In this document: positions 11,301-38,117 of the stretch, in pieces
How positions within the stretch are numbered: the first letter of the stretch is position 1
Layout of the letters: each line of letters starts with the position of its first letter
Virus record (IMG/VR): IMGVR_UViG_3300031578_004878
Span: 1-42,081 of that record
Strand: one strand, 5' to 3'
DNA: 42,081 bases
From: a virus
The notes under the pieces: model-generated
What the model saw: only the letters and a program-made list of their open reading frames with translations
What the model was told of the DNA's origin: nothing
The model's database searches: none
Translations under genes and position numbers: made by a program

Positions 11301-11497
11301 AAATTTTTATCTTGCGCTTCTTTTACTTTATTAATTGCTATAGCGAGGGTTTGTTGTCGCTGGGCATAACTCAGCGATGTTTTCGCAGCATCAACAAATC
11401 CCTGACTTCCCTTTTTTACAGCGGATTCAGCAGTAGTCAACACCCGCATAAAACGGGAAATACCTACTGCGACGAATTCTATACCAATTGCAGCCAT
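8357..11497 (-). CDS. Tail tape measure protein
   Basis: 1046 aa, the longest ORF. The N-terminal region (1-335) is mixed helical; residues about 338-402 contain hydrophobic, glycine/alanine-rich membrane-active segments; residues about 470-975 are predicted to be almost continuous charged alpha-helix or coiled coil. An Ala/Thr/Pro-rich stretch (978-1010) precedes the C-terminus. Tape measures set tail length and help deliver DNA. A repeat with a 70-71-residue period is visible: PLR motifs at about 509, 580 and 650, and EEE-ARQT-TRI blocks at 790 and 861. The start overlaps the upstream chaperone stop as TAATG with an AGGA site. Confidence 0.93.
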   Translation of the reverse strand: MAAIGIEFVAVGISRFMRVLTTAESAVKKGSQGFVDAAKTSLSYAQRQQTLAIAINKVKEAQDKNLTVHPAILVAIEKEKRALKLLYAEMRTGRAEMVSNTAEAGKFARNLYTVSFAAGIASAALLKISQVNLKAALSVEKYYIALDVLTEYTGANTDAVAAEIAELESRNMTRGDAIRMVARLMAAEFDYTKASDIALAGTRQSILTDLTATEVIERMTDAIINRTTRGLKDIDLLMLTNETFDKFAENLEIVTKNMTEGERSQAIFNAVLERTNLLVGIENKYRETGTALLEEYHKEVKDLQETLGKGLLPSLIDVLKVANDFLGWLNKLPKAATDAIAILALLAGAIAGVTTSTLMFVGLLRIAGLDALLAKIGTIATAITPAVGIAVLALGALTIGISRVTKAIKDLKTAPLEDAIQSMERIFSGILKIPLVPRPIAEWIVRKLRELFDIVTDEAEKAGRDVGRAFIDAMVEEINAQLRQVDIEATRLAEAFELEQAKATVVLVPLRLQELQIQRNIDKTQRLADAAEELAEGPLKNAQAQLKLLGDISKDLDRALLPYEHALKRTEAAAAEILIPLRAQERSLQRQLDLLERRIALERVSLENALRVAELSLRGIEDQVYALDKALWPLQDAFTQIRADADLILIPLRRQQRAIERQIDSMTRLSEIEQERIERHLRALEQQRDALQEIIDVDRDRLELINHEIFMEQLRNRILQRVTSAGLLTMQSQSAVLQDQLDLRQEQMKALNEQTKDERERLQDVKDTLEEQLEPLKKRLQLILDAIAPEEERVLFAQEELRLEEARQTASRITLEQQRRLAEEEVEQARRRLEDFDELTIARTQALRDDLTAIGDLIAREEEKVQLARDALELERARQTETRIALENAILLWEDIRDTAQIHFDIVKETYDTILEGLKNELDAVGILITAREDELKIISLIRDAVDATLKLEKDQLETRKKYLSTLKEIQELPLIMKSGATGDATAIPSATAIPTVPMPSPVPTPSITSQSSVVGPTIQLVAHYGKVQSIATIKDDVELMLSYAH

Positions 11498-11766
11498 TAT
11501 TTCCTACTCAGAATTGCTGTGTCTATCATATTTTTCAGCCTAAAATGCGCCAAAGTCTGCGCTTTCTCCACTTGTGAAAGTCGCTGAAATTCATGCCAAG
11601 GAATTACCGCAAATCTGGCGGCTTCCCTACACTCGAAATCTCTACTGTACCTGATCTCTGGTCCCTTCTGAGTCGCTTGCTGAAGGTGCTGTATCGGCAT
11701 CCCGTCCACGGTCACGCTGAAACCGTTGCATGGCGACTTGGATTTCCTCCTCGGAAGTACCCGCAA
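11497..11766 (-). CDS. Tail assembly chaperone, downstream frame (probable frameshift extension)
   Basis: This frame overlaps the end of the 201-aa chaperone by 125 nt and stops where the tape measure starts. Its conserved-looking part, EAARFAVIPWHEFQRLSQVEKAQTLAHFRLKN without its start, is typical of the second tail-chaperone reading frame (PW, then a helix with AQ..A.FR). The only candidate own start is TTG at 11766, without a clear SD. It is therefore more likely made as a C-terminal extension by +1 (or -2) frameshifting. A candidate slip site is CGG TTT CAG at 11725-11717, where tRNA-Phe could move from TTT to TTC. The exact shift position is inference. Confidence 0.65.
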   Translation of the reverse strand: MRVLPRRKSKSPCNGFSVTVDGMPIQHLQQATQKGPEIRYSRDFECREAARFAVIPWHEFQRLSQVEKAQTLAHFRLKNMIDTAILSRK

Positions 11767-12247
11767 GCCTCATGCTCTCCTGTTGAAGTTTTACCAAGTC
11801 TCCTGTAGAAACGGCTACATAGTATCGCATCCAAAGAAGTTTTCGTAGAGTCTTTTTTTCTGGGATTTCGATGCCAATATCAGAAAGCTCTTCTATCCAC
11901 GAATCATCTTCGCCATACTCAGGCAAATCTGGAGGCAACTGTAAAATCTTCAAACCGCGAAGGAGCGTTAGATTGAGTACGGCATCACTGAGCACTCCAT
12001 TTCTCTTTGCTACTGCTGCGAGATAATCTGGATCGCTAAGGTTCGCTTCCCTGATCATTTTTCCACGTACTTCTGTCTCCAAGATAGGCGGTTGTGGTTC
12101 TGGATATTGTAAGAATAGTGATTGAAGCACCATATCTGGTACAGGCCGCGCCTCTACGACTGCTCCACTTGCAAGAATAAGCGTAGATTTTTGTGCTCCC
12201 TCTTTTTCGAGGGCCTTTCCAGCCAATTCATCAGCAACAAGACTCAT
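11642..12247 (-). CDS. Tail assembly chaperone, upstream frame
   Basis: 201 aa. ATG at 12247 has GGAGG with 4-nt spacing. The text contains LILASGAVVEARPVPDMVL and VLNLTLLRGLKI, resembling the gpG/gp13-type chaperones found before the tape measure. The last 30 residues are charged and low-complexity, as usual around the frameshift window. The chaperone binds tape measure protein during tail assembly and is not expected in the virion. The position directly before an overlapping second frame and then the tape measure supports the call more strongly than the sequence itself. Confidence 0.75.
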   Translation of the reverse strand: MSLVADELAGKALEKEGAQKSTLILASGAVVEARPVPDMVLQSLFLQYPEPQPPILETEVRGKMIREANLSDPDYLAAVAKRNGVLSDAVLNLTLLRGLKILQLPPDLPEYGEDDSWIEELSDIGIEIPEKKTLRKLLWMRYYVAVSTGDLVKLQQESMRLAGTSEEEIQVAMQRFQRDRGRDADTAPSASDSEGTRDQVQ

Positions 12248-12268: not shown

Positions 12269-12922
12269 TTAAGAGACTGCTATCAACTCTGGGAAGTCGG
12301 GAACATATACCATCATAAATAAGTTTTCCCAATATTCACGGTCGTCATTAGTCTTGCGGTGACAGTCTGAACAGAGAGTCACTAAATTTTCGAGACAAAG
12401 ATCCCCCTTGACGTAGTTTATATGATGTATGGAATGTCGTCTTTTGCCTTGTGGCTTTCCACACAGTATGCAGGTATAATTATCCCGTTTCCGAATTGTT
12501 TCTCGAAAATGTTTTGTCCAATTTATTGGATATGGCTCAAAGGATACGCCACCATGCCAATTTGGATGATTTGAACCACACAAGTTTGGCACTGGTTTAC
12601 CCTTCTTAGCTGCAGAGATTTTCTGCCCAGTTTCTTCAGAAACCAACTTGCCCTTATTGCCAATAGAGATTTTTTGCTTTGTTTCCTCAGAATGATGCTT
12701 GCCCATATGGGCCGCAGAAAGTTTCTTCTTAGTCTCATCAGAACGTGGTTTGCCCCTCAAGTCCAGTCTCGGTCGGCCCTTATGAGCTACAGATAGATTC
12801 CGCTTGTGTTTCTCGGAAAAGGGTTTGCCCTTGCGAGCCATAGATATTCGTTCACGCCACAGGTCATATTCAGGTGTTCCCCTCCATAAATCATATTCAG
12901 ATGTCCCCTTTTTATACATCAT
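12269..12922 (-). CDS. HNH homing endonuclease with NUMOD3 repeats
   Basis: About 217 aa from ATG 12922 (AGGA, 7-nt spacing). Residues about 30-110 hold four to five NUMOD3-type DNA-binding repeats of the form SEETKQKIS..NKGK. The C-terminal HNH nuclease has CILCGK, HSIHHINYVKGD and LCSDCH, giving the paired cysteines and the HH-N-H catalytic residues. At the N-terminus a 9-residue unit is duplicated (GTSEYDLWR, GTPEYDLWR). It is free-standing between a tail gene and the tail chaperone and has no obvious structural role, so it is probably a selfish endonuclease gene. Confidence 0.92.
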   Translation of the reverse strand: MMYKKGTSEYDLWRGTPEYDLWRERISMARKGKPFSEKHKRNLSVAHKGRPRLDLRGKPRSDETKKKLSAAHMGKHHSEETKQKISIGNKGKLVSEETGQKISAAKKGKPVPNLCGSNHPNWHGGVSFEPYPINWTKHFRETIRKRDNYTCILCGKPQGKRRHSIHHINYVKGDLCLENLVTLCSDCHRKTNDDREYWENLFMMVYVPDFPELIAVS

Positions 12923-12960
12923 TCGCACGTCCTTTATACAAATTCTTCCTCCTTATATTT

Positions 12961-13041: not shown

Positions 13042-14550
13042 TCAGCCTTCTCCAACAACAACTATTCCATCTGCAAGTGTACGGTATCCACCAGCCAAAA
13101 CGAAGTTTGGATCTCTACATACTGCCAACTCAGTTAGTGCAAGATTGTCTGGAACAGACGATGCCTCCTCTTCAGGCACAACATACCAGGAGTTGCCATT
13201 GTCCAAAGTCCGAAGAATTCGTCCATCACTCGTCGCGCTCGGAGGAGTTCCTGTCGGATCATAGGCATAAACCATATAACCTACCGAGGAATTTGTGTAT
13301 CCATAGAAGACCAAATCTAGGACATGCCCACTTCCATCATCAGGGAACTCCTTTTGCACCCACGCTACAGCAGCATTAAGAGTGTAGTAGAGGTTCCCAT
13401 CTGCGCTCCCCACGAGCCAATGATACGGAGTCCTCATCCAGATACAATGTATATCCGAGGCAGTAGGCGATGAAGCCGCCACAGCCCAAGTCAATCCTCC
13501 GTTAGTTGTCACAACTACCGTACCGAGTTCGCCGACTGCCACCACATTACGACTGGTCGCAGCGTGAACATCCAAAAGATCGTCCCCAGCAGCAGCCGCA
13601 CCAGCATCCTGAACTTCGTAAGCCGCAGCAGAAGTTATATCATCTGTGAAGTATACGTAGCCATTCTGTCCAACGATCCAGATTTGTGTTGGAGAGAACG
13701 CAAAGATCGCCAAAGGCAGTGCGCCAACTTGGAACACATTCGGAACTTCCGTCCACGAGTCCAAGTCAGACAAACTTGCATAGTGCAATCCTGTAGAACC
13801 AGCAGAGACTACGGCTACGCGACTTCCAACACAAGCCATTCCAGATACGTCAGCGTCGTGGAGCGTATCGATGTCCCACTCATTCCAGTTTAAGCCCTTA
13901 TCCAAGGATTCGAGTAGCTCAGGAAGATCGTAAGGAGATCCCGCAACTGCTGCTGTAGCAGCCAACAGTCTTCGACAACCTCCAGACTCCCAACCGCATT
14001 CCCCGCAAGACAAATCATCGCAAATAGCCACAGCCAAAACTGGAGTATCGGTCTCACTAGCGGCTCGTTCGGCGTAAGTCATTCTTTCGATGAAGATGCG
14101 CGTCCAAGAAGTGATGCTTGCAGTGAGCATAATCAAGGCTTCATCGGTAGGCTCCAAAGAGGAAAGTTCATCTGAAGATTCCTCTGTGATTCCAGACCTC
14201 TCAAACTTGATTATTTTCTCCCAACCCCTATTGAAATCTGTGGGATCGGCACACCTTCCATAATGCACATCCAGATCGAAGTCGCATTCTTGTTCGAGAA
14301 TTTCGTTGACCAAACCAAACCTAGCATCGACCGATGTAGTCGGAAGTCCGCCTTCTCCTCTGATGACATCTACCACTTCATATTGTCCATACCTTTCGGG
14401 AGAAGGACAATATACTGGTGTGAGATCACCGCGAGATTTGGTGTAACCCCCAACTCTAGCACAGCCGAGATAAACATTATTGTGGGAAGGATTTCGATAA
14501 GGCTGTATGAAAGCCCTTCCTTGCCCACGTTTCCAAAAGATGTCAGTCAT
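13042..14550 (-). CDS. Virion protein with beta-propeller; candidate major tail protein
   Basis: 502 aa. Residues 1-200 form an unrecognised N-terminal domain (FIQPYRNPSHNNVYLG; then LMLTAS-like helices and a Cys-rich DDLSCGECGWESGGC). Residues about 200-500 look like a Ycf48/BNR-type propeller with Asp-box-like turns (TTNGGLTW, TLDNGNSW) and repeated aromatic strands. The gene occupies the major-tail-protein position just upstream of the tail chaperones. Its translation start shares a 16-nt identical RBS context (taggaggttaaaatg core) with the major capsid gene, which suggests equally high output. I infer a tail tube protein with a surface-exposed propeller, or an abundant decoration protein. 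Confidence 0.6.
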   Translation of the reverse strand: MTDIFWKRGQGRAFIQPYRNPSHNNVYLGCARVGGYTKSRGDLTPVYCPSPERYGQYEVVDVIRGEGGLPTTSVDARFGLVNEILEQECDFDLDVHYGRCADPTDFNRGWEKIIKFERSGITEESSDELSSLEPTDEALIMLTASITSWTRIFIERMTYAERAASETDTPVLAVAICDDLSCGECGWESGGCRRLLAATAAVAGSPYDLPELLESLDKGLNWNEWDIDTLHDADVSGMACVGSRVAVVSAGSTGLHYASLSDLDSWTEVPNVFQVGALPLAIFAFSPTQIWIVGQNGYVYFTDDITSAAAYEVQDAGAAAAGDDLLDVHAATSRNVVAVGELGTVVVTTNGGLTWAVAASSPTASDIHCIWMRTPYHWLVGSADGNLYYTLNAAVAWVQKEFPDDGSGHVLDLVFYGYTNSSVGYMVYAYDPTGTPPSATSDGRILRTLDNGNSWYVVPEEEASSVPDNLALTELAVCRDPNFVLAGGYRTLADGIVVVGEG

Positions 14551-14559
14551 TTTAACCTC

Positions 14560-15750
14560 CTAAGTCAAGGCGTATCCTACGCCCAAGTATTGTGAAATTA
14601 TCAACCACGCTTCCCAAGCTCCATTTTTAGGCCCAAATGGAGCTGTCAACTGTTCAAAAGCTACAGGACTTGTTGGCCTAGATTGCCATTCCTGTGCCAA
14701 CTTCTCAGACCCGCCGCAACCACAGATTGGCTCAGTGAGTAGAGAAGTAGCGAGAGCTGCCACGGCTCTATCGAAGGGCGCAGCCATTCTTCCCTGATAA
14801 TTCACAGGAAATCCAGCCCTATAATAGAGATTGGCGTAGTAAGGTTCATCTGTGATATTGAAATATGCAGCTAACCATGTTGATGTAGCACTATCCCAAA
14901 CCGCTGGAACCAATGTTACGATTCCAAGATTTGGATTTCGCGCCCGCAGTACTCCAGATGCTGTTACGAAGTTTATTACAGTGCTTCTTTCCCACTCGAA
15001 GACTGTGGGAGCAAAACTCGTTCCTTGTTCAGATGTATGAATATCATAAACGAATACTTCATCCAAATAAACAGTTACGTCGTCACCATTTATAGCAGCA
15101 TCTATTTGCCAATTGATGGGATGCACAAACTGTGAACTTTGTCCTTCAATTATTACTTGAGTATTCGTAAGTCCTATCTTAAGTCCTCGAATACGCTTGG
15201 TTTCATCTGTATCAGTCGATGGAAAAACACCGATTCTCTCTTTAGTCAAAGCTGTATTTGCATTGACATAAGGTACGGTTACTCTGGCGATTTCATTGAA
15301 ACCATCGCCATCTAAGTCGATATATTGAACTGGTCGATTGCTTCCAATCGCATCGATCTTTTTTCTTCCACCTTCTATGAAATAACCATATCGTGTCGTA
15401 ACCGTCTTTCGCCTATCCTGATTCTGGGCTGGATAATAGATTGTTCCATAATTAGTCAATACTCGATCTTGCCTTGGATAAGTATGCTTCTCAGCCTCGA
15501 ACCATCTTGGAGCTGGTGAGAACTCTAGTTCATTCATTATCATCTGCTCGGCTTGAGCGATGGCCCGCGCTAACCCCTCCCGTGAAGCCTTGCCCTTATC
15601 CATCCAATCGTATTGATACCAGATAGATTCACAGGTCGATACTACAGGGAAAGCATTACACCTCATTTGATTGAAATGCCGAGGATCGAGGCCGAGAATC
15701 TCTGAATAATGATCCAAGCTTAACAACGTGGGAGTATCGGCTCTAGCCAT
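14560..15750 (-). CDS. Virion structural protein, probable head-tail connector
   Basis: 396 aa. An N-terminal helical region (1-95) contains LDPRHFNQMRCNAF, CESIWYQYDW and a helix with EQMIMNELEF, similar in style to gp6-like head-tail adaptors. The rest is beta-rich with a calcium-loop-like DLDGDGFNE (about residue 147). It lies between two small connector-like genes and the probable tail protein gene, where head completion and connector proteins normally sit. No family-specific motif allows a firmer name; a tail terminator or baseplate-type protein is possible. Confidence 0.55.
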   Translation of the reverse strand: MARADTPTLLSLDHYSEILGLDPRHFNQMRCNAFPVVSTCESIWYQYDWMDKGKASREGLARAIAQAEQMIMNELEFSPAPRWFEAEKHTYPRQDRVLTNYGTIYYPAQNQDRRKTVTTRYGYFIEGGRKKIDAIGSNRPVQYIDLDGDGFNEIARVTVPYVNANTALTKERIGVFPSTDTDETKRIRGLKIGLTNTQVIIEGQSSQFVHPINWQIDAAINGDDVTVYLDEVFVYDIHTSEQGTSFAPTVFEWERSTVINFVTASGVLRARNPNLGIVTLVPAVWDSATSTWLAAYFNITDEPYYANLYYRAGFPVNYQGRMAAPFDRAVAALATSLLTEPICGCGGSEKLAQEWQSRPTSPVAFEQLTAPFGPKNGAWEAWLIISQYLGVGYALT

Positions 15751-16196: not shown

Positions 16197-16376
16197 CTAT
16201 TGTGTCTCAACAACTTGAAAGTCGAGCATCCGCTCGAAAAAGTGTACGTCTTTTATCGGAACCCAAGATTGCCGTTGACCACGACCATCGAATCTATAAC
16301 GGTTTCCTAAAGGAGTCCTAAAAGTCCGCGCTCCCATATTGTCACCTGTGTACTTGATTAGTGCTTTCGTTGCCAT
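16197..16376 (-). CDS. Possible internal start: stand-alone module copy 1
   Basis: Met802 of the fused glycosyltransferase (ATG at 16376) is preceded by AAGGA with 7-nt spacing. Initiation there would yield a 59-aa protein, starting MATKALIKYTGDN, that matches the two downstream small proteins. The structural module could therefore be made separately, with the fusion arising only from loss of a stop codon between adjacent genes. The same DNA would also encode the C-terminus of the 860-aa product. Confidence 0.5.
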   Translation of the reverse strand: MATKALIKYTGDNMGARTFRTPLGNRYRFDGRGQRQSWVPIKDVHFFERMLDFQVVETQ

Positions 16377-18779
16377 CGCTTCATCCTTTTTGATTGACTT
16401 CTTAATTAAGGGATCTTCAGATAATATCACTAATCCCAGTTCTTTAGGAGGTAGGGCTTCTAAAGTTAAATATCTCTGCCTAAATCCCTTCATTAGTTCT
16501 TCGGCGTTATCGAGACACTCTTCCCTTCTCTTGCCGCTTTCATAATGATAAGAGAATAGTGGTTCAGGAACCCTTATTCCATGATAACCTTTATGCGCTA
16601 GTTGTACAGTATAGTCCCAATCCTCCCAAACAGGAATCTCTTCATTGAATCCGCCGACTTCATCGAAGGCTTCTTTTGGGTGTAAAAAAGTAACGACGAA
16701 GAGAGCCTGATTCTTTAGTCGCTCAAAGTTCCATTCTTCGGCGTGATGAACTTTTCCTTCTGGAAGTGAGATCCAATCAGTATAGATGATCGATTTTGGC
16801 CTGACGGCTGCAACTTTTAATGTCTGCCTAAGAAAGTGCTTGTCTAACTCATCATCTGCATCCAAGAAGAGCAGGAATCTCCCCTTCGCAGAATTCGCCC
16901 CCAGATTTCTAGCAGCACTGACGTTTCCGTACTTTCGCTTCCTCTTCCAGTTTATAAGTGGGTATCGAACACTATAGGGAAGTATACCACAATTTTTGAT
17001 TTTGCCAAACTTTGTATCGTCTACTACAATTAATTCCCATCGTCCGTCGGTCTGTGCTTTTACTGACTCTATTGCATTCTCTAAGATCGCCTCATGTCCA
17101 TCGCCGACAGGAATGATGATGGAGACCAACGGTTGATCGTAACTGAACACAGGGTGAGAATAGTGTTCTGGAGTTGCGATGCTGGCGAACGGCTGTGGGC
17201 CACCATTGGCGGCGGGAATAAAGTCTAACCAGTTGGGTTCTTTTACCTTTTCTTTCCTTGCTTTGTTGGTGATGCTATTCTCATGGACTCGATAAATCAT
17301 CACAGGGGTTTGAGTTGTATGAATCGCACTGAAACCTGCTAAACCAATGTTAGTCCAGAGTTCAGCGTCTTCTCCAAGCGTGAAATGATTTTTATATCCA
17401 CCAGCTCTGAAAAAAGCGTCTCTACGAAGAAGATTACAAGAAGGTACTTGATTCTGCTTCTTCAACTGAGCATCGAAATTGAAACCATTCGGCCAACTTC
17501 CAGCGACAGGCCCACGGGGGGTGTGAAGCTCAAGACTACCAAAAGAGATTCCGATAGATCGATCCTCTAGCAAGGGCGGTAGGAGTGTCTCCATGAAGCG
17601 TTCTTTTAAAGTATCATCAGCATCGAGGAAACACAGAAATTCGCCTTTGGCCTCCATCGCGCCTCGATTTCGTGCGCTTGCTACACCACGGTTGGATTGG
17701 ACTAAGACTTTGAACTTTGGATTGTTATTCACGGCCTTATTAATTTCCACTAGCGAGTCGTCTTCCGAGCCATCGTCGACTACGAGGCACTCCCAGTCCA
17801 AGAAGGTCTGCGATTTTACAGATCGAATGGCATCAGCAACGAAATCAGCGTAGTTATAACAAGGGATTATTACCGAGACCTGTGGGCCTTGATGTTTCTC
17901 TAAGGCCGATTCATAGACTTCGACGTATTTGGGGATGATGTCTTTCCAATCATGTTTTAGGGCTTCTTGTCGAGCGGCTTTCGATAATTTATCGAAATTG
18001 TCGATGCAATATCGTAAACCCTTCACAGTATCTTCATAATCTCCTGGTTTAGCGAGGTATCCAGTTTTCTTGTGGACTATTAGCTCAGGCGCATTACCCC
18101 AATTCCAGGCTAATGTCACCATTCCTGCGGCCATAGCTTCGAGGATGCCTATCCCATAAGTCTCCTTGGTTGGGGCAAAGTAGATGCCACTTTTGTAAAG
18201 GATTTCCTGCATTCTGTCGTAGGGTTGCAATCCAACTATATCCAAGTTCTTGGAAGAAGGCACACCAAAAGTGGAGATAAACTTCATGTCAGGACACAGG
18301 ACAGCGAGTTGTTGCATTGGTTCAGGAGTACAGACGGCATCGACTCGATTTTTATTGAAAATTACATCCATTTCCCTTGCTGTAGAAGGCTCTGGCCATT
18401 CTTCAAGACGGATGCCATGAGGTACGATAATTGGAGCGAAGCCCATATCGCGCACGAAGATCTCGGCGATCCACGGAGATGGGACTGTAATCCTCTTGAC
18501 TTTCCGAATGGTATCAATAATATTCCGATTTGAGCGCCACATCCATGCTGGCAGCGGAAACTCTCCCGACGGATAAAGTCCATGACAGTGAAGGATGTCT
18601 GGCAAGGTATCGGCAAAGGGCACAACATGAGCTGCGAGCACATCTGCATCTAAGGGGCTGTCAGTAAACTCCAGATAATCAATCAAGTAACGTCTTTGCT
18701 CAATTATTACGCGCTCGACACCTGTGATGGACTTTTGCGAAGGATCAATAGTTGGTGTGGGACTAAGAAAGAGTTTCAT
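16197..18779 (-). CDS. Triple-domain glycosyltransferase (GT4 + GT2 + GT2) fused to a connector-type module
   Basis: 860 aa. Residues 1-295: a GT-B domain with SPWIAEIF, a VPHGI switch and the E206-x7-E214 motif in KETYGIGILEAMAAG. Residues 298-515: a GT2 domain with VSVIIPCYNY, VVDDGSEDD, FLDADDT and GEDAEL. Residues 550-775: a second GT2 domain with VSIIIPVGDG, VVDDTK, FLDADDE and WEDWD. Residues 802-860: a small module repeated in the next two genes. All three catalytic domains look intact, so it could build a short oligosaccharide alone. The start lies 17 nt inside the upstream HNH gene. It is the last gene of the 12-kb sugar block. Confidence 0.88.
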   Translation of the reverse strand: MKLFLSPTPTIDPSQKSITGVERVIIEQRRYLIDYLEFTDSPLDADVLAAHVVPFADTLPDILHCHGLYPSGEFPLPAWMWRSNRNIIDTIRKVKRITVPSPWIAEIFVRDMGFAPIIVPHGIRLEEWPEPSTAREMDVIFNKNRVDAVCTPEPMQQLAVLCPDMKFISTFGVPSSKNLDIVGLQPYDRMQEILYKSGIYFAPTKETYGIGILEAMAAGMVTLAWNWGNAPELIVHKKTGYLAKPGDYEDTVKGLRYCIDNFDKLSKAARQEALKHDWKDIIPKYVEVYESALEKHQGPQVSVIIPCYNYADFVADAIRSVKSQTFLDWECLVVDDGSEDDSLVEINKAVNNNPKFKVLVQSNRGVASARNRGAMEAKGEFLCFLDADDTLKERFMETLLPPLLEDRSIGISFGSLELHTPRGPVAGSWPNGFNFDAQLKKQNQVPSCNLLRRDAFFRAGGYKNHFTLGEDAELWTNIGLAGFSAIHTTQTPVMIYRVHENSITNKARKEKVKEPNWLDFIPAANGGPQPFASIATPEHYSHPVFSYDQPLVSIIIPVGDGHEAILENAIESVKAQTDGRWELIVVDDTKFGKIKNCGILPYSVRYPLINWKRKRKYGNVSAARNLGANSAKGRFLLFLDADDELDKHFLRQTLKVAAVRPKSIIYTDWISLPEGKVHHAEEWNFERLKNQALFVVTFLHPKEAFDEVGGFNEEIPVWEDWDYTVQLAHKGYHGIRVPEPLFSYHYESGKRREECLDNAEELMKGFRQRYLTLEALPPKELGLVILSEDPLIKKSIKKDEAMATKALIKYTGDNMGARTFRTPLGNRYRFDGRGQRQSWVPIKDVHFFERMLDFQVVETQ

Positions 18780-19524
18780 TTTCTTTACTCGCAGAATGGT
18801 TATAGACTCGTGAGATCCAGGCTAAGAATTCATCTTGAGTCATCTTTCTTTTTGCATAATTACAGTCCTTACAACATGATACCACATTATCAATTTCGTA
18901 TCCGCACTCATTATCAATACGATCAAGGCCATTAAAAAGGTATACTCCATTGAAATGAGAATGAACCAAACTTCTTCCCCGTTGAGAAGGTTCCTTGCCA
19001 CAATAGTAGCACACTTGAGAGGTTAATCGTCGAATCTGTTCTACTGTTAGATTCCAAGAATATCCTCTTTGTTTAGCCGAATATTTCAGAGTACTAACCA
19101 ATTGATTGAATGCCGCTTCTCCAAAAGGCAAACTTTGTCTTTTGCGCACTCCTTCACTCCTTAAGCAACCGCAACTTTGGGTATGACCGTTTTGAAGACA
19201 CTCTCCGCGTACCTCGACTTCTTTGCCACAATCACAGTGGCAGAGCCACGCGATTTGTCTTCCTTTGGATTCTGCTTGACATAAAACGATTAGTCTTCCA
19301 AATCGACGACCAGTTCTATCGATGAGTTGTGCCTTCGCTCTATCTCTCTGAAGGCAACCACAACTTTGAGTGCGGCCACTTTGGAGGCTTTCTCCAAGTA
19401 CTTCGACTTCTTTTCCACAGTCGCAATGGCATATCCATATAATGTCCCCATTTCTATTTTCTGCTCGACTTAGTACAAGTAATCTTCCGTATCGGTGGCC
19501 TGTTCTGTCAATGAGTCGTGTCAA
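18763..19524 (-). CDS. HNH endonuclease with two Cys-rich DNA-binding modules
   Basis: 253 aa from TTG 19524, with AAGGAG 6 nt upstream. Two tandem modules (about 1-60 and 65-125) share LIDRTG.R.GRL, CHCDCGKEVEV and QSCGCL, each a likely four-Cys zinc site. The C-terminal nuclease has CYYCGKEP, NGLDRIDNECGYEIDNVVSC and CCKDCNYAK. The architecture is repeated by the gene at 34755-35480. It is free-standing between two glycosyltransferase genes and overlaps the next one by 17 nt. Probably a homing endonuclease. Confidence 0.9.
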   Translation of the reverse strand: MTRLIDRTGHRYGRLLVLSRAENRNGDIIWICHCDCGKEVEVLGESLQSGRTQSCGCLQRDRAKAQLIDRTGRRFGRLIVLCQAESKGRQIAWLCHCDCGKEVEVRGECLQNGHTQSCGCLRSEGVRKRQSLPFGEAAFNQLVSTLKYSAKQRGYSWNLTVEQIRRLTSQVCYYCGKEPSQRGRSLVHSHFNGVYLFNGLDRIDNECGYEIDNVVSCCKDCNYAKRKMTQDEFLAWISRVYNHSASKENETLS

Positions 19525-19539: not shown

Positions 19540-20793
19540 TCAGATCGGATAATGTTCATCAGATCGCCACGCCCGTGCTTTCGCGGTCGCACCAGGCCGC
19601 CAATTTCCCTGGAACATCCTCCGCGTTCCAGCAATAAGATGCTTGACATAATTCTGCACAGGGAAATCTTGCAGTTCAAAGCCCTGTGCCAAAGCCGATC
19701 TCATATTTCCCACGCAAGGAGCACCTGAATTTTCCATCGGCGTTAACTGAAGGAACTTTTCCCTATCGATCATCGCAGCATGGGGGTGAATATAAGAAAT
19801 AACATTCCCTCCCTTCTTACCTGTGGGCACTCCCGACCATTTGTCTACGCTTCTCAACCACCCTGTCACGTATAGTTGTTTTGGATTCCTCTCGAACTCA
19901 GCGATCATTGCCTCCAAAAGTCCTGCACACTTTAAAGAGGCATCAGAATCATAAAGGAATACATAAGGTGTCTTTGCCAGTGCAATCCCCTGATTGATAG
20001 CGGGGCCATGCCCAATATTCTTCTCATTCAAAACGGCTGTGATATTCTCGTGCATCTCCCCGACTGTCTTTACATAAAGCGTCGATTCGTCGCCAGATCC
20101 GTTGTCGATGAGCACTAGAGGAATCTTTGGATAATACAACATCATAGTGCGCCGTGCCTCGTTCGTCAATTTTTTCGTCTTGTGATTAATTAGTATCACC
20201 GTAACATTCTCGTAAACTTTTCCCACATCTGGCGACACTACGACCTTTCTAGGCAATCCTTTTCCTCCGATTTTATCCACCATTATCATCGTTCTATTGA
20301 TCCAATAGGTACTGCACCCTGCATCAAAGAGTGCCTTTATGAAATAATAGTCCCCGTGCCTCGATTTTGCAAACATAAAAATGTGCTGTTTCCAGATCTC
20401 TCTTTTCACGATGAAACAGCAAGACCCGATCTCCCCCAGCACAGGGGGCTTCCCCCAAGTTCTCTTTGATGGTAGAAAGTCACTGAACGGTTTGCGATAT
20501 GCCTTGAAAAGAATGATGTCAACAGGATGTTGTGCGGCTACATTCTTTAAATGCTTGATGAAACTTCTATCGCTAATGTAATCGTCGTCGTCCAAAATCA
20601 GAACATATTGCCCATTCACCCTGTGTTTATTTTGATTCAGACTTTTATTGGCTTCGTGCAGTCCTTTATGCTCATTATCAGTAATTATTATATGTTCATA
20701 ATCGGGATCAATCTGCGTTGCCAACGACCTCCTATTTCTTGCAAGCAATCGAGTCCTTCCGCAAGATCGAGTTACCACAGATAAAAAAGTCAC
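19540..20793 (-). CDS. Two-domain family 2 glycosyltransferase
   Basis: 417 aa. The first GT-A domain (1-195) has FLSVVTRSCGR, IITDNE and a metal-binding LDDDDY. The second (about 195-400) has VTVILINHKTK, VLIDNGSGDES, NEKNIGHGPAINQGI and YDSDAS. GTG at 20793 overlaps the stop of the methyltransferase gene as GTGA, so translation is coupled. Each domain could add one sugar. Substrates are unknown. Confidence 0.85.
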   Translation of the reverse strand: MTFLSVVTRSCGRTRLLARNRRSLATQIDPDYEHIIITDNEHKGLHEANKSLNQNKHRVNGQYVLILDDDDYISDRSFIKHLKNVAAQHPVDIILFKAYRKPFSDFLPSKRTWGKPPVLGEIGSCCFIVKREIWKQHIFMFAKSRHGDYYFIKALFDAGCSTYWINRTMIMVDKIGGKGLPRKVVVSPDVGKVYENVTVILINHKTKKLTNEARRTMMLYYPKIPLVLIDNGSGDESTLYVKTVGEMHENITAVLNEKNIGHGPAINQGIALAKTPYVFLYDSDASLKCAGLLEAMIAEFERNPKQLYVTGWLRSVDKWSGVPTGKKGGNVISYIHPHAAMIDREKFLQLTPMENSGAPCVGNMRSALAQGFELQDFPVQNYVKHLIAGTRRMFQGNWRPGATAKARAWRSDEHYPI

Positions 20794-21278
20794 TTTATAG
20801 CCTCACAAAGTATGTCGCCATCTGGCATATGTCCCGACCTAGTTGGGTAAGCAGTGCATTTCTTTATCTTGAAACCAGAATCTTTAACAATCTGGTGCAT
20901 CCTATCCGCCGTGAAAAAGTTCCTATTGATGTGCCCTTCTCCTCTTGAGACCGATCCCAAAAGCCAGGTCAACCCCTCTCCCCAACGCAACTTAGAATCA
21001 CCTGCCAACCATCTCTTTAGATAAGCCTCAATATTTGGGCAACGAATCATCAATACTCCACCAAACCTTAGAACCCTCCTCCATTCTTTCAGCATTATCT
21101 GAAACTCTTGTAATGTGGCGTGTTCTACCATATGCGATGTGTAAATCTTGTCCACAGTATCATTAGCGTAAGGCAACTCAGAGGCGTCCACATTTAGATC
21201 CGCTTCTTTAGAATATTTATCGATATTTACGAAGTCCTTCATTCGAGTAGTCCCACTACCCAAATTGAGTTGTAGCAT
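20790..21278 (-). CDS. Class I SAM-dependent methyltransferase
   Basis: 162 aa. LQLNLGSGTTRMKDFVNID is the SAM-binding motif I; LNVDASELPYANDTVDKIY and SHMVEHATL follow, with WRRVLRFGGVLMI as motif post-I/III, as in predicted sugar-cluster type 11 methyltransferases. GAGGA lies 5 nt before the ATG. The start is inside the last codons of the CgeB-like gene. It resembles the 147-aa methyltransferase at 1347-1790 in layout. Confidence 0.85.
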   Translation of the reverse strand: MLQLNLGSGTTRMKDFVNIDKYSKEADLNVDASELPYANDTVDKIYTSHMVEHATLQEFQIMLKEWRRVLRFGGVLMIRCPNIEAYLKRWLAGDSKLRWGEGLTWLLGSVSRGEGHINRNFFTADRMHQIVKDSGFKIKKCTAYPTRSGHMPDGDILCEAIK

Positions 21279-22188
21279 GGCATTCCTCGATTATCTTTTT
21301 TGTGTAGTGAGTAAAAGTATATCGTGCCAGTATTTCCCTTTGTCCATTTATAGCAATTTCTGTACGCTCTTTTGGGTGTTTCAAATAATAATCTATCATA
21401 GCAAAGAGTTCCTGATCTGACTTGTACCAAACCAGATGCTTGTGGTTAGTAAACAAATCCTCGATGCCTTCAGAATAAGTCTGAATAAGGAAGCAACGGG
21501 AACTTAAAACATTGGGCAATCGATTCGAAAAGTATCCCTCCAAATATCGCCATTCGTCTCCGATCAGACTGAGCATAATCTTCGTCTGCCCGCACAATTT
21601 AGCAAAGTCTCCACCGAAAGCAGGACTGAGAGATTTAAATTGTGTCCCTGTCCAATTTGGGCCAGCCACATAGAGATTGAATCTCTTGTGCAACTCATTC
21701 AAAGTTCTACGTCTGGAAACATCGTTATTCCAACCAGGAAAAACTACATTGTAAATCTGCTTCGATGGACGATACTTGAAAATACTAGGCTCTGTAGGAC
21801 AAGGAAGATAAGTACAGTTGAAAACTCCCTTTTCAATATTCTGTTTTATGTGTGTCTTGTTAGAGATATAAACATAATCTGCTGCAACTCTAGCAAGTCG
21901 CAGATGATACTCAGAGTAAGGACGGTCGCCGTAGAAAGCAGAGATACCACAATTCAATTCGTCCTTGACTCTTCGTAACATTCGAGCATCGACGCTTCTC
22001 CCAGACTTTACACTACCGCCAAGATGAATGTGTGTAGGTCGAAAATCGAGAAGAATCTGCTCAAGGCGATCTTTTTTATTCCGAGCATCAAAGTGCTGAA
22101 CTATACCAAGTTTTCGGAAAGCATTGAGCCAATAAAAGTTAGAGTTTGTTTTCTCAAATAAATCTACATAAAAGATTCGTTCAGCCAC
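21256..22188 (-). CDS. CgeB-like (GT-B) glycosyltransferase
   Basis: 310 aa. The C-terminal half carries the CgeB/Glyco_trans_1_2 signature: YFSNRLPNVLSSRCFLI, then HLVWYKSDQELFAMIDYYL, then IAINGQREILARYTF with a terminal H. The N-terminal half has HIHLGGSVKSGRSVDARML and FYGDRPYS. Such proteins are probable glycosyltransferases acting on surface or spore polysaccharide. GTG at 22188 has GAGGA upstream and overlaps the preceding related gene by 8 nt. Confidence 0.83.
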   Translation of the reverse strand: MAERIFYVDLFEKTNSNFYWLNAFRKLGIVQHFDARNKKDRLEQILLDFRPTHIHLGGSVKSGRSVDARMLRRVKDELNCGISAFYGDRPYSEYHLRLARVAADYVYISNKTHIKQNIEKGVFNCTYLPCPTEPSIFKYRPSKQIYNVVFPGWNNDVSRRRTLNELHKRFNLYVAGPNWTGTQFKSLSPAFGGDFAKLCGQTKIMLSLIGDEWRYLEGYFSNRLPNVLSSRCFLIQTYSEGIEDLFTNHKHLVWYKSDQELFAMIDYYLKHPKERTEIAINGQREILARYTFTHYTKKIIEECHATTQFG

Positions 22189-23131
22189 GAAGTTCCTCCA
22201 CGAATAAAGCTGCTCGTTTTTCCCAAGTACAAGCGAAGGCAGTCTTCTGACCCAGTTTGATTAAACGCTCTCGCTCCTGTGGATCATTGATGTAGCGATC
22301 TAACAATTGTCTAAGATGTTGAGCTGATTTATACTGTGGTACAGCACCCTTGAAAATTCCTTGCAAACCAATATTCTTATCTGAGATAGCAAGACTTCCA
22401 CTAGCTAAAATATCAAAGATTTTTACCGAAACGAAACCCTCTCTGGACATTTCGGGCCTATGATCTTGAAGACACATTTTTGCCGATGCGTAAAGATTCT
22501 GGATTTCTGGATAGGGATAGTAACGACCGCCATACCACGAATCTGGAATCTTTCCTTTCCAATTATTTCCAAAAATGGCAATTCTATAAGGAAGATTCCC
22601 TAAAGATTTCAAATGGTTGATTATTGCTCGACCATCCATTCCATGAGGGCCTCTATTATTTCCTACAAAGACCATATCATACTTATTAGCTATATTCACA
22701 GGTCTTTTAGAAGTTGCGCCTAACATCACCTGTGCATCGTAACCCATCTGTCGCAATTTTGCAGTGAAAAATGTCGAACAGCAAAAGATTTTATCATAGC
22801 CACGCAAATTTGTAGAATTTGGTTTCTCAGGATGGGAATAAACCCAAGCGATCTTGTAAATGCTGCTTGGAAGTTGTTCGATTTTCTTTTTATAAATATA
22901 TTCTATCTCACCACCAGAAAGATGAATTAGTACATCGGGTGGATTTATGTCTGGTCTACTAACTGAGATACGATGTCCGAGATTCTTCAAAGCTGTAGAT
23001 AATTCTTCCTTTGCCCAGTTATCCCCCCATAAATTTCTACCGAGTCCTGGAGGACTTATATCAGAGGGAGCAGCTACGTGAATTATCAAACTTTTCTTTT
23101 CTTTTAGTTGTAGTAGTCTTTCATTTCTCAT
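22181..23131 (-). CDS. CgeB-like (GT-B) glycosyltransferase
   Basis: 316 aa. DMVFVGNNRGPHGMDGRAII, PEIQNLYASAKMCLQDHRPE and GFVSVKIFDILASGSLAISD form the C-terminal donor-binding half of CgeB-type proteins, followed by SAQHLRQLLDRYINDP and the closing helix. The N-terminus has a GxGRNLWGDNWAKEEL motif. It is adjacent to and distantly related to the 310-aa protein downstream, so the two probably act in sequence. It overlaps both neighbours by 8-11 nt. Confidence 0.83.
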   Translation of the reverse strand: MRNERLLQLKEKKSLIIHVAAPSDISPPGLGRNLWGDNWAKEELSTALKNLGHRISVSRPDINPPDVLIHLSGGEIEYIYKKKIEQLPSSIYKIAWVYSHPEKPNSTNLRGYDKIFCCSTFFTAKLRQMGYDAQVMLGATSKRPVNIANKYDMVFVGNNRGPHGMDGRAIINHLKSLGNLPYRIAIFGNNWKGKIPDSWYGGRYYPYPEIQNLYASAKMCLQDHRPEMSREGFVSVKIFDILASGSLAISDKNIGLQGIFKGAVPQYKSAQHLRQLLDRYINDPQERERLIKLGQKTAFACTWEKRAALFVEELRG

Positions 23132-23684
23132 AAAGAATTACCGCATTTGGCCAAAATTTTGTTTTCCCTTTTGGTCTAGGATATACAATCGAATGAACAA
23201 TATCCTGTCTTTCAAAGCAACTTAAAATCTTCCTTACATCCATAATGAAATATCGATGCTCTTCATAAGGATTGCCATCTATCGGGCCTTGTTTTTCCTT
23301 GCCGACTGGAAAAGAGAGCATAAGGAACTTTCGTGTGATTCGACAAAGTTTCTTTATTGTCAAATAGATTTCTGCAAAATTATTGAGATGCTCGATGCCA
23401 TGAATCCAACAAACTACATCGAAAGAATTTGCGGGAAAAATATAGTTAATGAATCGAACATCTCCAGAGATTGCATTATAACCACGTTCTCGTAATTCCC
23501 TGACATTTGGAGGATGAATCTCCAAAATAGTATAATCTTTGACACCAAATCTCTGCAAGCCCTTGAAAAGACCAGCACCATATTCAGGAAGATAACGAGC
23601 ACCAATATCTAAGGCAGATTCACCATGAAAATGATACTTTGTTAAGAATTCTATCGTAGACTCATCGAAGTCCCTGCTTTTCAC
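23121..23684 (-). CDS. SAM-dependent methyltransferase
   Basis: 187 aa. ALDIGARYLPEYGAGLF is motif I; YTILEIHPPNVREL, AISGDVRFI and FDVVCWIHGIEHLNN follow in Rossmann order, with FPVGKEKQGPIDGN and HRYF in the C-terminal half. Those C-terminal motifs are shared with the 185-aa protein at 1775-2332. GTG at 23684 overlaps the stop of the acetyltransferase gene as GTGA. The substrate is probably a sugar of the cluster product (inference). Confidence 0.8.
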   Translation of the reverse strand: MKSRDFDESTIEFLTKYHFHGESALDIGARYLPEYGAGLFKGLQRFGVKDYTILEIHPPNVRELRERGYNAISGDVRFINYIFPANSFDVVCWIHGIEHLNNFAEIYLTIKKLCRITRKFLMLSFPVGKEKQGPIDGNPYEEHRYFIMDVRKILSCFERQDIVHSIVYPRPKGKTKFWPNAVILYEK

Positions 23685-24241
23685 AAATCCAACTCTTTAA
23701 TTAGTGTTTCTCTCAACGCATTGAAAGCATCCCTCAGTAAACCATGAATATAGACATCGATGTATTTCCCATTCTTGAACTTCTGCTCTCTAAGAATGCC
23801 CTCTTCTTGAAAGCCCATCTTTTGATAAACCGCCCTAGCACCCTCATTTAGAGCCATAGTCTCTAACCAAATCTTGTTGAGATTGAGGTGATTGAAAGCA
23901 TAATCAAGGAGCAAGAATACAGCTTCCATACCATAGCCCCATCCACGGTATTTAGCCTCTCCGATAAGAAATCGACCAAACTCCGCTGTGCGATTGCGCC
24001 AATCTATGTTGCTCAGTCCAATAGCACCAATAGTTGTATCATCGATAGTCTGAATCATATAATATCGAGCATTGGGATCACATAAGACTTTATCAATCCA
24101 TTCCGAATGTGAATCAAAAGAAAGAGGCTCCTCTTCGAAGAAGAAGGCTTTCACCTGTGGATCATTCCGCCATCGCACAAGACAATCATCATCTAAATAA
24201 TTACCATAAGCTCGTAAAATCACCTTCTTACCTATGAACAT
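23681..24241 (-). CDS. GNAT-family N-acetyltransferase (PseH/RimJ-like)
   Basis: 186 aa. KVILRAYGNYLDDDCLVRWRNDP is the usual start of RimJ/PseH-type enzymes. IGEAKYRGWGYGMEAV (about residues 93-108) is the acetyl-CoA pyrophosphate loop. IWLETMALNEGARAVYQKMGF is the conserved closing region. AGGA precedes the ATG, which lies 10 nt inside the DegT gene. Next to a sugar aminotransferase, N-acetylation of a 4-amino sugar nucleotide is the most likely role. Confidence 0.87.
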   Translation of the reverse strand: MFIGKKVILRAYGNYLDDDCLVRWRNDPQVKAFFFEEEPLSFDSHSEWIDKVLCDPNARYYMIQTIDDTTIGAIGLSNIDWRNRTAEFGRFLIGEAKYRGWGYGMEAVFLLLDYAFNHLNLNKIWLETMALNEGARAVYQKMGFQEEGILREQKFKNGKYIDVYIHGLLRDAFNALRETLIKELDL

Positions 24242-25401
24242 TCATTCATCCTCCCAAAATCCAAGATAGAATCGATGATATAAGAAACCTCATCATCTGT
24301 GAGAGCAGGATACATTGGAAGCGTCAACAACTTTGGCCATACTCGCTCTGCGACAGGAAGAATCATAGAACCCAACCTGCGACGATAATAAGGCTGCAAA
24401 TGAATCGGGTAGTAATGTACCCCTGTGGCGATCCCCTTTTCCTTGAGGAAAGCGTTCAAGGCGTCTCTGTGGGAAGTTTTTATCACATAATTGTGCCAAG
24501 AACTTTTCGCATATGGTTTCTCTATAGGAGTTTCTATCCAAGGGGCACTCTCCTGAAAGGCAGCAGTGTAAGTGCTTGCGATCTCACGTCGTCTGGCGTT
24601 AGCTGTGTCTAGTTTTGCAAGTTGACATAAGCCAATGACGGCGGCAATATCGTTCATATGATATTTGTATCCCAATTCTGCAACTTCGTAATACCAAGAA
24701 TATTGCTTATACGCAGCCTCCTCGGTTCGATCCCAAGTGCTCTTGTCAATTCCGCACCATCGAAGTCGTCGTAGTCTTTCAGCCAGTTCTAGGCGATTTG
24801 TGGTAATCATTCCTCCATCGCCACAGGGGAGATTTTTTACTGCATGAAAGCTGAAGCAAGCGGCCATACTGCGTTCAAGACTACCGATTTTTTGCCCCTT
24901 ATACTCACTCCCACAGGCATGTGCAGCGTCTTCGATGACATGGAGACCATATTTGTCGGCGATATTCCAAATGGCGTCCATCTGGCAGGGATGACCACCA
25001 TAATGTACGGGGATTATGGCCTTCACACTAGGATGGCCTAACTTCGCTGCCGTCCTTAGTTTTTGTGCCAGATCTTTGAGCTGGATATTCAAAACATCTG
25101 GCACGATGTCGATGAAAAGGGGGAGCGCGCCACAATAGGTCGGAGCGTGGGCTGTGGAAACGAAAGTCATCGTAGGAACAGCTACCATATCCCATTCACC
25201 GAGATCTAAAGCCAAGCAACATAAGTGAAGGGCCGCCGTGCAACTATTAGTGGCAATAGTGTACTTCGCACCGACATACTCTGCGAATCGTTCCTCAAAC
25301 TCTTCCGTCTTCGGGCCGAGTCCTATCCAGCCAGTCTGAAATATTTCCCAAAGGGCTTTGAGTTCTTCTTCACCAAGAGATGGCCGAAAGACTGGGATCA
25401 T
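24232..25401 (-). CDS. DegT/DnrJ/EryC1 PLP-dependent sugar aminotransferase
   Basis: 389 aa. ATG at 25401 is chosen because AAGGAAG lies 8 nt upstream and ATGA overlaps the upstream stop; the frame also extends to 25446. IPVFRPSLGEEEL, GWIGLGPKTEEFE and NSCTAALHL open the fold. D158 (VIEDAAHACG) and K189 (SFHAVKNLPCGDGGM) are the PLP-binding residues. Family members aminate keto-sugar nucleotides, for example to 4-amino-4,6-dideoxy sugars. No dehydratase or nucleotidyltransferase is present in the window, so the keto sugar would have to come from the host. Confidence 0.93.
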   Translation of the reverse strand: MIPVFRPSLGEEELKALWEIFQTGWIGLGPKTEEFEERFAEYVGAKYTIATNSCTAALHLCCLALDLGEWDMVAVPTMTFVSTAHAPTYCGALPLFIDIVPDVLNIQLKDLAQKLRTAAKLGHPSVKAIIPVHYGGHPCQMDAIWNIADKYGLHVIEDAAHACGSEYKGQKIGSLERSMAACFSFHAVKNLPCGDGGMITTNRLELAERLRRLRWCGIDKSTWDRTEEAAYKQYSWYYEVAELGYKYHMNDIAAVIGLCQLAKLDTANARRREIASTYTAAFQESAPWIETPIEKPYAKSSWHNYVIKTSHRDALNAFLKEKGIATGVHYYPIHLQPYYRRRLGSMILPVAERVWPKLLTLPMYPALTDDEVSYIIDSILDFGRMNECS

Positions 25402-26054
25402 TTTTTCATCTTCCTTGCGTTGATGCGCCGCGTCGATTCTACCCATCCTGGATAGTCTAAGGGAACCTGGCGCAACTTGACTGGTAAGGGATCGGAATCA
25501 AGATTGATCTTCTCCTGCGCTTTCCAATCTTTCACTTTCGTCGCTGTAATCCACACTCCCCTGGCTTGTGTCGCAGAGTGCCCCTCAGCAGTCACATCTA
25601 AGATTTGAAAACGACGAAATAACTGCACCATCCCCCGTGGAGTGAAACGCCAGTAATCTCGCATTGTATTAGGGCCAGAAGGTCGATAAACATGGTAAAA
25701 ATCGGTGGTTAGAATACAGACTCCATCAAATTTGCACACCTTCCACAACACATCTATGGCTTTTTGAGGATCATAAATTCGAGAAAGAGATTCCATATTC
25801 AAGATGAAATCAGCATATTCCGCGCCAACAATATTGTCTAATGCACAAATATCACAGATATAATCCATCGATGGGGGTGTGGTGTCAGAGACATCATGCT
25901 TGAAATAAACAGCACCTTTGAATAAAGACTCATACCAAGTAGTCCAACTAAGGATGAATCCTGCGCAAGTGTCCAAAATGATCTTACCCTGTGTAGACCA
26001 ATGAAAGCGATTAAGCATATCTTCTATGTAACCGCGAGTGCGTTGCGCTGGCAT
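25398..26054 (-). CDS. Probable methyltransferase-like protein
   Basis: 218 aa. GKIILDTCAGFILSWTTWYES stands in for motif I but is not canonical. YICDICALDNIVGAEYADFI, ILNMESLSRIYDP and AIDVLWKVCKFDGVCIL follow the type 11 order, and YRPSGPNTMRDYWRFTPRGM is the typical C-terminal signature of this methyltransferase group. The start forms TAATG with the upstream stop and the end forms ATGA with the DegT start. The role is inferred from context and C-terminal motifs. Confidence 0.72.
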   Translation of the reverse strand: MPAQRTRGYIEDMLNRFHWSTQGKIILDTCAGFILSWTTWYESLFKGAVYFKHDVSDTTPPSMDYICDICALDNIVGAEYADFILNMESLSRIYDPQKAIDVLWKVCKFDGVCILTTDFYHVYRPSGPNTMRDYWRFTPRGMVQLFRRFQILDVTAEGHSATQARGVWITATKVKDWKAQEKINLDSDPLPVKLRQVPLDYPGWVESTRRINARKMKK

Positions 26055-26797
26055 TAGAGTCTCTGAAGACCTTTCTCTTGCATCATGGTCGCCAATTCAC
26101 TTAAGAATACAAATCGTGCAGGAGCCAAACTGTGAATCGTTTGCAGAATCTTATTTACGATTATGGGCGTAAGATTATTCTTTAGTTTGCTAACGCAATG
26201 CCCTCTATGTAGATAATACTTGGTAATATCTGGAATCTTTCCCTTGTTGTAAAATAAGAAACTCTTTTGATCAGTGTTATAATAAATATCACTGTTTGGA
26301 AAGATTAATGGAAGGTCAGTTTCTTCGTAATCGTCTATGTAAAATGGATGCCCCGCCAGATAGAGATAATTCTGCTTCTCCAATGCTTTGACGCATCCCT
26401 TACTAATTATCCAACGCGGAGGACGGAAACCTTTAGTAAAAGATAATCCGACTTCATCCGCAGTGCGTTCACAAAGTTGCAAAAGCTCCATAGATTGCTC
26501 TTCACTTAATAATGAAAACTCAGGAATCATTTTAGCATCTACCAGATGATGTTTGTAACCATGATAGGCTAGTTCTACATTCTTGGTGGGCAATGCCCGA
26601 ACCTGCGAACACCACTGAGGATTATCATGAAGATCGTTGCCTTTGGCCACGGCGGTGTTTATGGAAACGAAGAGAGTCATCTTGATATTTGGGCATTTCC
26701 TAACTAATTCCCTCAATAGAGCAAAATTTGTGAAGGCTGGAATGAAGTCATCTAAACTTAAATTATAAAGAATCGGTTCAGAATTGGACTGTTGCAA
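26054..26797 (-). CDS. Polysaccharide deacetylase-like protein
   Basis: 247 aa. NLSLDDFIPAFT supplies a DD metal/catalytic motif, YHGYKHHL a histidine motif and FRPPRW the third NodB-type motif, in that order. VFLSELATMM closes the barrel-like domain. These enzymes remove N-acetyl groups from glycans or sugars. TTG at 26797 follows AAGGAG at a 10-nt distance and overlaps the methyltransferase gene by 20 nt. It could alternatively be an inactive or N-formyl-type relative. Confidence 0.7.
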   Translation of the reverse strand: MQQSNSEPILYNLSLDDFIPAFTNFALLRELVRKCPNIKMTLFVSINTAVAKGNDLHDNPQWCSQVRALPTKNVELAYHGYKHHLVDAKMIPEFSLLSEEQSMELLQLCERTADEVGLSFTKGFRPPRWIISKGCVKALEKQNYLYLAGHPFYIDDYEETDLPLIFPNSDIYYNTDQKSFLFYNKGKIPDITKYYLHRGHCVSKLKNNLTPIIVNKILQTIHSLAPARFVFLSELATMMQEKGLQRL

Positions 26798-27317
26798 AAA
26801 TTATATGCTCCTTAATATAATTTTGTAAGACCACAAAAGGTCTGAAAACAGAAGTCAAAGATGCTCTCGTAAATTTATGCACATGACTGATATGTCCATG
26901 ATAATTGCCACACGTTACAGATACAAAGAGTTTCCCCAAAGGCTTAAGAATCCTCGAAATCTCAGAAATCAAAGTTTTCAAATCTTTGATGTGCTCTATC
27001 GTAGCTAACATAAAGGCATTATCAAACATTTGGTCTTCAAAAGGCATCATCAAAGCATTTGCGACGCAAAATTTAGAACCAAAATGCTTGGTTGCATAAT
27101 CAACCGCAACCCATGAAAAGTCAATGCCGATAATTTCGCAATTCTTTGTTGCTAAAAATGTCCTAATTCCTAATCCACAGCCTATATCTAAAACTAAACC
27201 ATGAAGAATATCGCTTTTGAGCAATTCTTTAGTTATCAGATGATTCTTATACCAGTCTAAAGTAAATGAGTGCCCCTTCTTGGAGATTTCTATTATCTCA
27301 GCCCAAATTGCATCCAT
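26778..27317 (-). CDS. SAM-dependent methyltransferase
   Basis: 179 aa. I chose ATG at 27317, one base after the stop of the upstream glycosyltransferase, over an in-frame start at 27419 that would overlap it by 100 nt. VLDIGCGLGIRTFLA is a clear motif I, followed by IGIDFSWVAVDYA, VANALMMPFEDQMFDNA and SRILKPLGKLFVSV. It is the most canonical methyltransferase in the window. Its target is unknown. Confidence 0.87.
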   Translation of the reverse strand: MDAIWAEIIEISKKGHSFTLDWYKNHLITKELLKSDILHGLVLDIGCGLGIRTFLATKNCEIIGIDFSWVAVDYATKHFGSKFCVANALMMPFEDQMFDNAFMLATIEHIKDLKTLISEISRILKPLGKLFVSVTCGNYHGHISHVHKFTRASLTSVFRPFVVLQNYIKEHIIFATVQF

Positions 27318-27318
27318 A

Positions 27319-38081: not shown

Positions 38082-38088
38082 GTTAACC

Positions 38089-38117
38089 ATTATAGCATAA
38101 TTCTTTATAAAATGCAA
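38089..38117 (-). promoter_or_regulatory. Extended -10 promoter for the late operon
   Basis: On the minus strand TTGCAT (38117-38112), a 17-bp spacer ending in TGC, and TATAAT (38094-38089) form an extended -10 sigma70 promoter with a weak -35. It overlaps the U-tract of the preceding terminator and points into the GIY-YIG and terminase genes. Confidence 0.65.

Follow-up and report, generated by a model that had tools for sequence, protein, structure and literature searches.

A glycosyltransferase gene in a 42,081-base virus record (the window, by which we mean the whole stretch analyzed) ends in a small module that is encoded twice more immediately downstream, raising the question of whether enzyme and module were joined by accident or whether the virus makes use of their union. 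The terminase, portal, tape-measure, and distal-tail genes all lie on the minus strand of the window, and a block of sugar genes, including glycosyltransferases, methyltransferases, an aminotransferase, and an acetyltransferase-like protein, sits between the tail genes and the gene at 28074–29522, a putative major capsid protein gene by position alone. The fused ORF, P0001 (16197–18779, minus strand, 860 aa, ATG start), is the final member of this block. Between the putative capsid gene and the putative connector gene, a large sugar-modification cluster (19540–28020) encodes GT2 enzymes, methyltransferases, a DegT-type aminotransferase, and acetyltransferase-like and deacetylase-like proteins; its gene content in the related contigs L005 and L007 differs from that of the window. 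HNH or GIY-YIG/NUMOD-like endonuclease genes are scattered among the late genes (18763–19524, 34755–35480, 12269–12928, and 37290–38117), one of them immediately upstream of the glycosyltransferase. Ahead of the tape-measure gene, two overlapping ORFs of 201 and 89 aa (11497–12247) resemble a tail-assembly chaperone pair and may make use of a frameshift.

P0001 proved to be the triple-domain glycosyltransferase described in the first-pass annotation. An N-terminal GT4-like (GT-B) domain (residues 1–295; 17895–18779; PF00534/PF13692 and AF2 model) is followed by two GT2 domains at residues 296–545 (17145–17894) and 546–775 (16455–17144), which correspond to two stretches of PF00535 matched above the curated cut-off (166.5 bits); all features of the ORF lie on the minus strand. 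In a 31-sequence alignment, E206 and E214 of the GT4-like domain (E-x7-E), D386-A-D-D389 of the first GT2 domain, and D640-A-D-D643 together with E719 of the second are invariant, the DADD stretches at 386–389 and 640–643 representing the DxD-type metal motif of GT2 enzymes. An AF2 model of the entire protein (mean pLDDT 89.8) places the three enzyme domains and the C-terminal module (Met802–Gln860; 16200–16376) on either side of a disordered, flexible linker (residues 776–803; 16371–16454), with pLDDT below 50 at residues 786–800. Two GT2 domains per chain are likewise found in the tandem GT2 polymerases K4CP and heparosan synthase 2, the best PDB matches by both sequence and fold, and the chondroitin synthase K4CP is the closest solved sequence to the first GT2 domain. 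Unlike these polymerases, P0001 adds the N-terminal GT4-like domain and the C-terminal module, and global TM values are low, with the domains arranged differently.

The match between the last 59 residues of P0001 and two adjacent downstream proteins reflects homology, with a module of ~57 residues. The first standalone copy, P0002 (15945–16196, minus strand, 83 aa, MGCGC leader), begins with an ATG directly after the TAG of the fused gene, and its end is overlapped by the second copy, P0003 (15751–15972, minus strand, 73 aa, MGCRC leader). P0001 residues 802–860 match P0002 at 47% over 47 aa (pairwise E 2e-14) and P0003 at 35% over 49 aa (E 3e-10), whereas P0002 and P0003 match each other with a pairwise E of 2e-10.

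The fusion is whole in IMG/VR contigs L005/L006 (87% identical, 860 aa) and L007 (78%, 858 aa), which also retain both standalone copies, and it persists at about 31–48% identity. A sequencing error or missed stop was rejected because the fusion is intact in relatives at 87%, 78%, and lower identity. Comparison of the window with L007 yielded a dN/dS of 0.073 for the fused module, the lowest of the three module copies (P0002, 0.144; P0003, 0.13) and similar to that of the second GT2 domain (0.069), whereas the linker is relaxed (0.32–0.37). Low values in the module next to a relaxed linker indicate that the module is under selection as an integral part of the enzyme. Since purifying selection on the fused module is strong even in comparison with L007, where Met802 and its start are missing (...KKDVPKPTKVLIKY...), the fusion protein itself appears to matter, and we consider it likely to be functional.

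To place the fusion in a wider context, alignment-based scans of viral contigs were performed, yielding about 80 further loci and, after removal at ≥80% identity, a set of 74. Enzyme and module share the long ORF expected of a nested gene in 67 of the 74 loci (window included): 62 are fused with an internal start and a Cys motif, a tally that takes in the ATG seen in L042, one is fused with the Cys motif but without a start (L026, which has no other copy), and four are fused, lack the Cys start, and carry a standalone copy. The remaining seven are unfused. A separate module gene follows the enzyme stop in L011, L025, L087, and L108, the module gene lies in a different frame in L103 and L113 (recognized in the latter by position and its MACCG leader, without a profile match), and an HNH-type gene separates enzyme and module in L119. 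Further variation includes one extra module copy beside the nested start in L085, and L132 (6000–9380), in which the GT4-like domain is an ORF of its own while GT2-GT2-module remains fused with a MACSGCGGG nested start. Whole-record searches of six nested relatives identified the fused copy only, except for a 143-kb contig with two complete fused ORFs (IMGVR_UViG_3300031566_000001). The two nested glycosyltransferase regions of this contig, L075 and L078, lie ~75 kb apart, possibly because two related phages are joined or the assembly is chimeric. A bacterial genome collection contained just two family members, both in MAG bins (L132 and L140). Among 50,697 phage records, no relatives of the module, P0002, the L034 nested protein, or the downstream gene were found; enzyme matches were generic GT2 only, and the L052 nested protein matched only HhH segments of haloarchaeal viruses.

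An accidental fusion, by recent stop loss or assembly error, with only the separate module of importance, would fit the presence of module homologues directly downstream and the separate enzyme and module genes of L011, L025, L087, and L108. Yet the 67 fused loci are independent and spread across the tree, the split forms are limited to the window's clade and three isolated cases, and dN/dS is lower in the fused module than in either standalone copy, making an accident extremely improbable. Recent loss of a stop codon, which had been proposed for the window, is excluded, as the fused state spans the entire enzyme tree. On the simplest reading, the fused state would be ancestral, and we are nearly certain that the fusion is an old, selected, and conserved architecture of this family.

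The joint itself carries a second signal. In all 62 nested loci, a Cys-x(0-3)-Cys motif lies no more than six codons from an ATG, GTG, or TTG in the enzyme frame, the two together forming a leader of the Met-x-Cys-x-x-Cys type (for example MGCGCG, MACTGC, MPCCGG, or MACKSC). Of 63 Cys motifs, 62 have a start-type codon among the six codons that precede them, whereas the chance of one in such a stretch is 0.29. Shine-Dalgarno (SD) duplexes at the joint average −8.1 kcal/mol (61 loci), compared with −1.7 at 975 control in-frame ATGs of the same ORFs (Mann–Whitney p 1.8e-36), and energies at or below −5 are reached by 98% of joints but 10% of control ATGs; the joint SD is even stronger than that at the starts of the putative connector gene downstream (−5.8). 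This result is not circular, because the sites were chosen without use of the SD. A conserved internal start with SD, as expected of a nested gene, is thus present in 62 of the 74 relatives, and a search with an alignment of the downstream gene added L225, a further fused enzyme in which an LPCGGC leader accompanies a TTG start, as well as L222, a locus without such an enzyme directly upstream. Many of the nested proteins combine P/A/S/T-rich linkers with the conserved Cys-rich leader, and many carry an extra tail beyond the module with HHH_5 or E3_binding domains. We judge the nested start very probably genuine in the family. A fused frame with a Cys-led start and SD at 62 loci suggests that the ancestral state was a nested gene, and because the module of most relatives has a strong SD and a start of its own in the enzyme frame, these phages are predicted to make two products from one frame, the enzyme–module fusion and the free module.

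These signals would also suit selection for the free protein only, with an inert read-through product and an open frame that merely reflects compact packing with translational coupling. The internal start and its SD are the strongest conserved signals, and the module gene almost invariably neighbors the enzyme gene. However, phase and a stop-free joint are kept in 67 of 74 loci, although coupling needs neither, and the window, L007, L023, and L104 keep the fused copy despite free copies elsewhere, at a dN/dS of 0.07 where measured. We therefore regard this explanation as unlikely and retain a fusion that matters in its own right beside the free module.

The window departs from the family pattern. 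Its fused copy no longer has a Cys leader but keeps Met802, preceded by an AAGGA motif 7 nt upstream (16384–16388, minus strand) with an anti-SD duplex of −5.4 kcal/mol, a value bettered or equalled by 7% of the remaining in-frame ATGs of the P0001 ORF. The SD before Met802, initially called good, is thus present but decent rather than strong, and the absence of Met802 from L007 indicates a lack of conservation of this start even among close relatives. Separate production of the module from this site, also suggested earlier, is possible and in line with the wide conservation of the internal start in the family, but in the window's clade the start is decaying, as the standalone copies now bear the Cys-led start.

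The tree built from 71 enzymes shows the nested state in 59 rows, distributed over all its parts. The window falls in an eight-row clade (support 100) with L007, L023, L026, and four split forms. A fused copy without the Cys leader is combined with a Cys-led standalone copy in the window, L007, L023, and L104; since L104 lies outside the window's clade, this pattern arose at least twice. These distributions indicate that nesting has been resolved in the window's clade, either by splitting of the genes or by standalone copies taking over the Cys-led start.

The likely role of the module was approached through its fold, its profile matches, and its neighbors. Modeled alone by AF2, it forms five strands and one helix (pLDDT 93.9), but in a fold search the top PDB hits (Z 5.2, to a GINS subunit domain) do not exceed the chance range and viral hits are weak; this failure to find a confident relative carries no evidential weight. 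No meaningful Pfam or PHROG family match was obtained for P0002, P0003, or the fused module. Three relatives weakly match phrog_748, annotated as "head-tail connector" (E 0.003–0.01). The L034 module aligns over most of two short profiles, DUF7302 (PF23976; E 1.3e-4, though at 22.7 bits below the Pfam cut-off of 24.9) and phrog_748 (E 0.0041), whereas the window copies match neither. Downstream lies a conserved gene for a 396-aa protein, in the window at 14560–15750 (minus strand), a putative head-tail connector by position; it is present in 66 of 74 loci at a median of 392 bases past the enzyme stop, and searches with the protein gave no family match and no annotated homologue. Many nested relatives have a small membrane-type ORF (for example LAVWRLSSLLVVEEGPW...) between their module and this gene; it is missing from the window's clade. 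After the putative connector, a 502-aa protein with BNR/Asp-box, YCF48-like repeats (13042–14550), kept in relatives, is possibly a tail or decoration propeller. Gene order and the weak profile matches suggest that the small module protein belongs to the head-tail region. The description of the module as virion-type thus remains tentative: it agrees with the conserved late, structural-type neighbor, but the window copies match no family at a meaningful level.

GT2 family enzymes are known to carry C-terminal accessory domains. The module could accordingly serve the enzyme by binding the acceptor or glycan, or by being the acceptor, with the free form acting as regulator, adaptor, or substrate. 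The P/A/S/T-rich linkers and Cys-rich leader of many nested proteins would suit such a role, and the virion location of the module is itself deduced from sequence. Its place next to the structural-type gene, seen at 66 of 74 loci, the weak matches to a head-tail connector PHROG, and the HHH_5 or E3_binding tails of several relatives, which are atypical of glycan binding, speak against it, and we consider an accessory role rather improbable, if somewhat less so than selection for the free protein only.

With the module placed in the head-tail region, docking is the simplest purpose that sharing a domain could serve. The module would act as an assembly or docking domain of this region, and the fused copy would co-assemble with free copies or bind the same partner. 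The flexible linker would hold the glycosyltransferase at the assembling particle, where the enzyme would add sugars, made by the neighboring sugar-gene cluster, to virion proteins. We give docking of the enzyme at the virion via its module slightly better than even chances; the tethering proposed at the outset is thus the best functional reading, with a virion location that depends on gene order and weak matches. The overall account that we favor with modest confidence is that of an old nested enzyme/module gene, resolved in the window's clade, whose module would dock the enzyme. More tentatively, and with rather less than an even chance, the enzyme may, in a large group of uncultivated tailed phages, be a minor particle subunit that glycosylates virions, the nested frame yielding a neck-region protein with or without a three-domain glycosyltransferase, and the conflict between these roles having been solved by duplication in the window's clade.

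Sugar-modification genes within a virion structural operon are also found in mycobacteriophage Corndog (cluster O), where glycosyltransferase and methyltransferase genes lie between portal and protease and capsid modification was proposed (PMC4351075). Unlike the gene described here, those of Corndog are separate, and none is reported fused to a structural module. As Corndog-type glycosyltransferases, although encoded among virion genes, were not found in virions (PMC4351075), any tether may act during assembly only.

For the nested arrangement, the closest parallel is provided by phage lambda. Its protease gpC shares its C-terminal part with the nested in-frame scaffold Nu3, and this Nu3-like C-terminus places the protease. 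C, Nu3, and the portal form a complex, with C–Nu3 and Nu3–Nu3 interactions (PMC3224144). In both cases one frame encodes a long enzyme together with a small protein equal to its C-terminal part, which is made (here by prediction) from a start inside the frame. The likeness drawn is one of gene arrangement, and there are differences: the enzyme here is a glycosyltransferase, gene order puts the small protein in the neck/connector region, and nesting in the window has been resolved by duplication. Open-literature searches returned no report of a nested glycosyltransferase/module arrangement, which is no proof of novelty. Nested enzyme/morphogenetic genes as such are known; what is new, as far as these searches reached, is a form with a glycosyltransferase, the breadth of its distribution, and the way duplication resolved it.

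In all these genomes, the small protein would escape gene callers that annotate only the long ORF. The family offers a clear natural example of a nested gene with two predicted products, which has persisted in highly divergent phages and was later resolved, by splitting in some and by duplication in others. A domain shared in frame with a probable structural protein would also give phage glycosyltransferases a direct means of reaching virion proteins.
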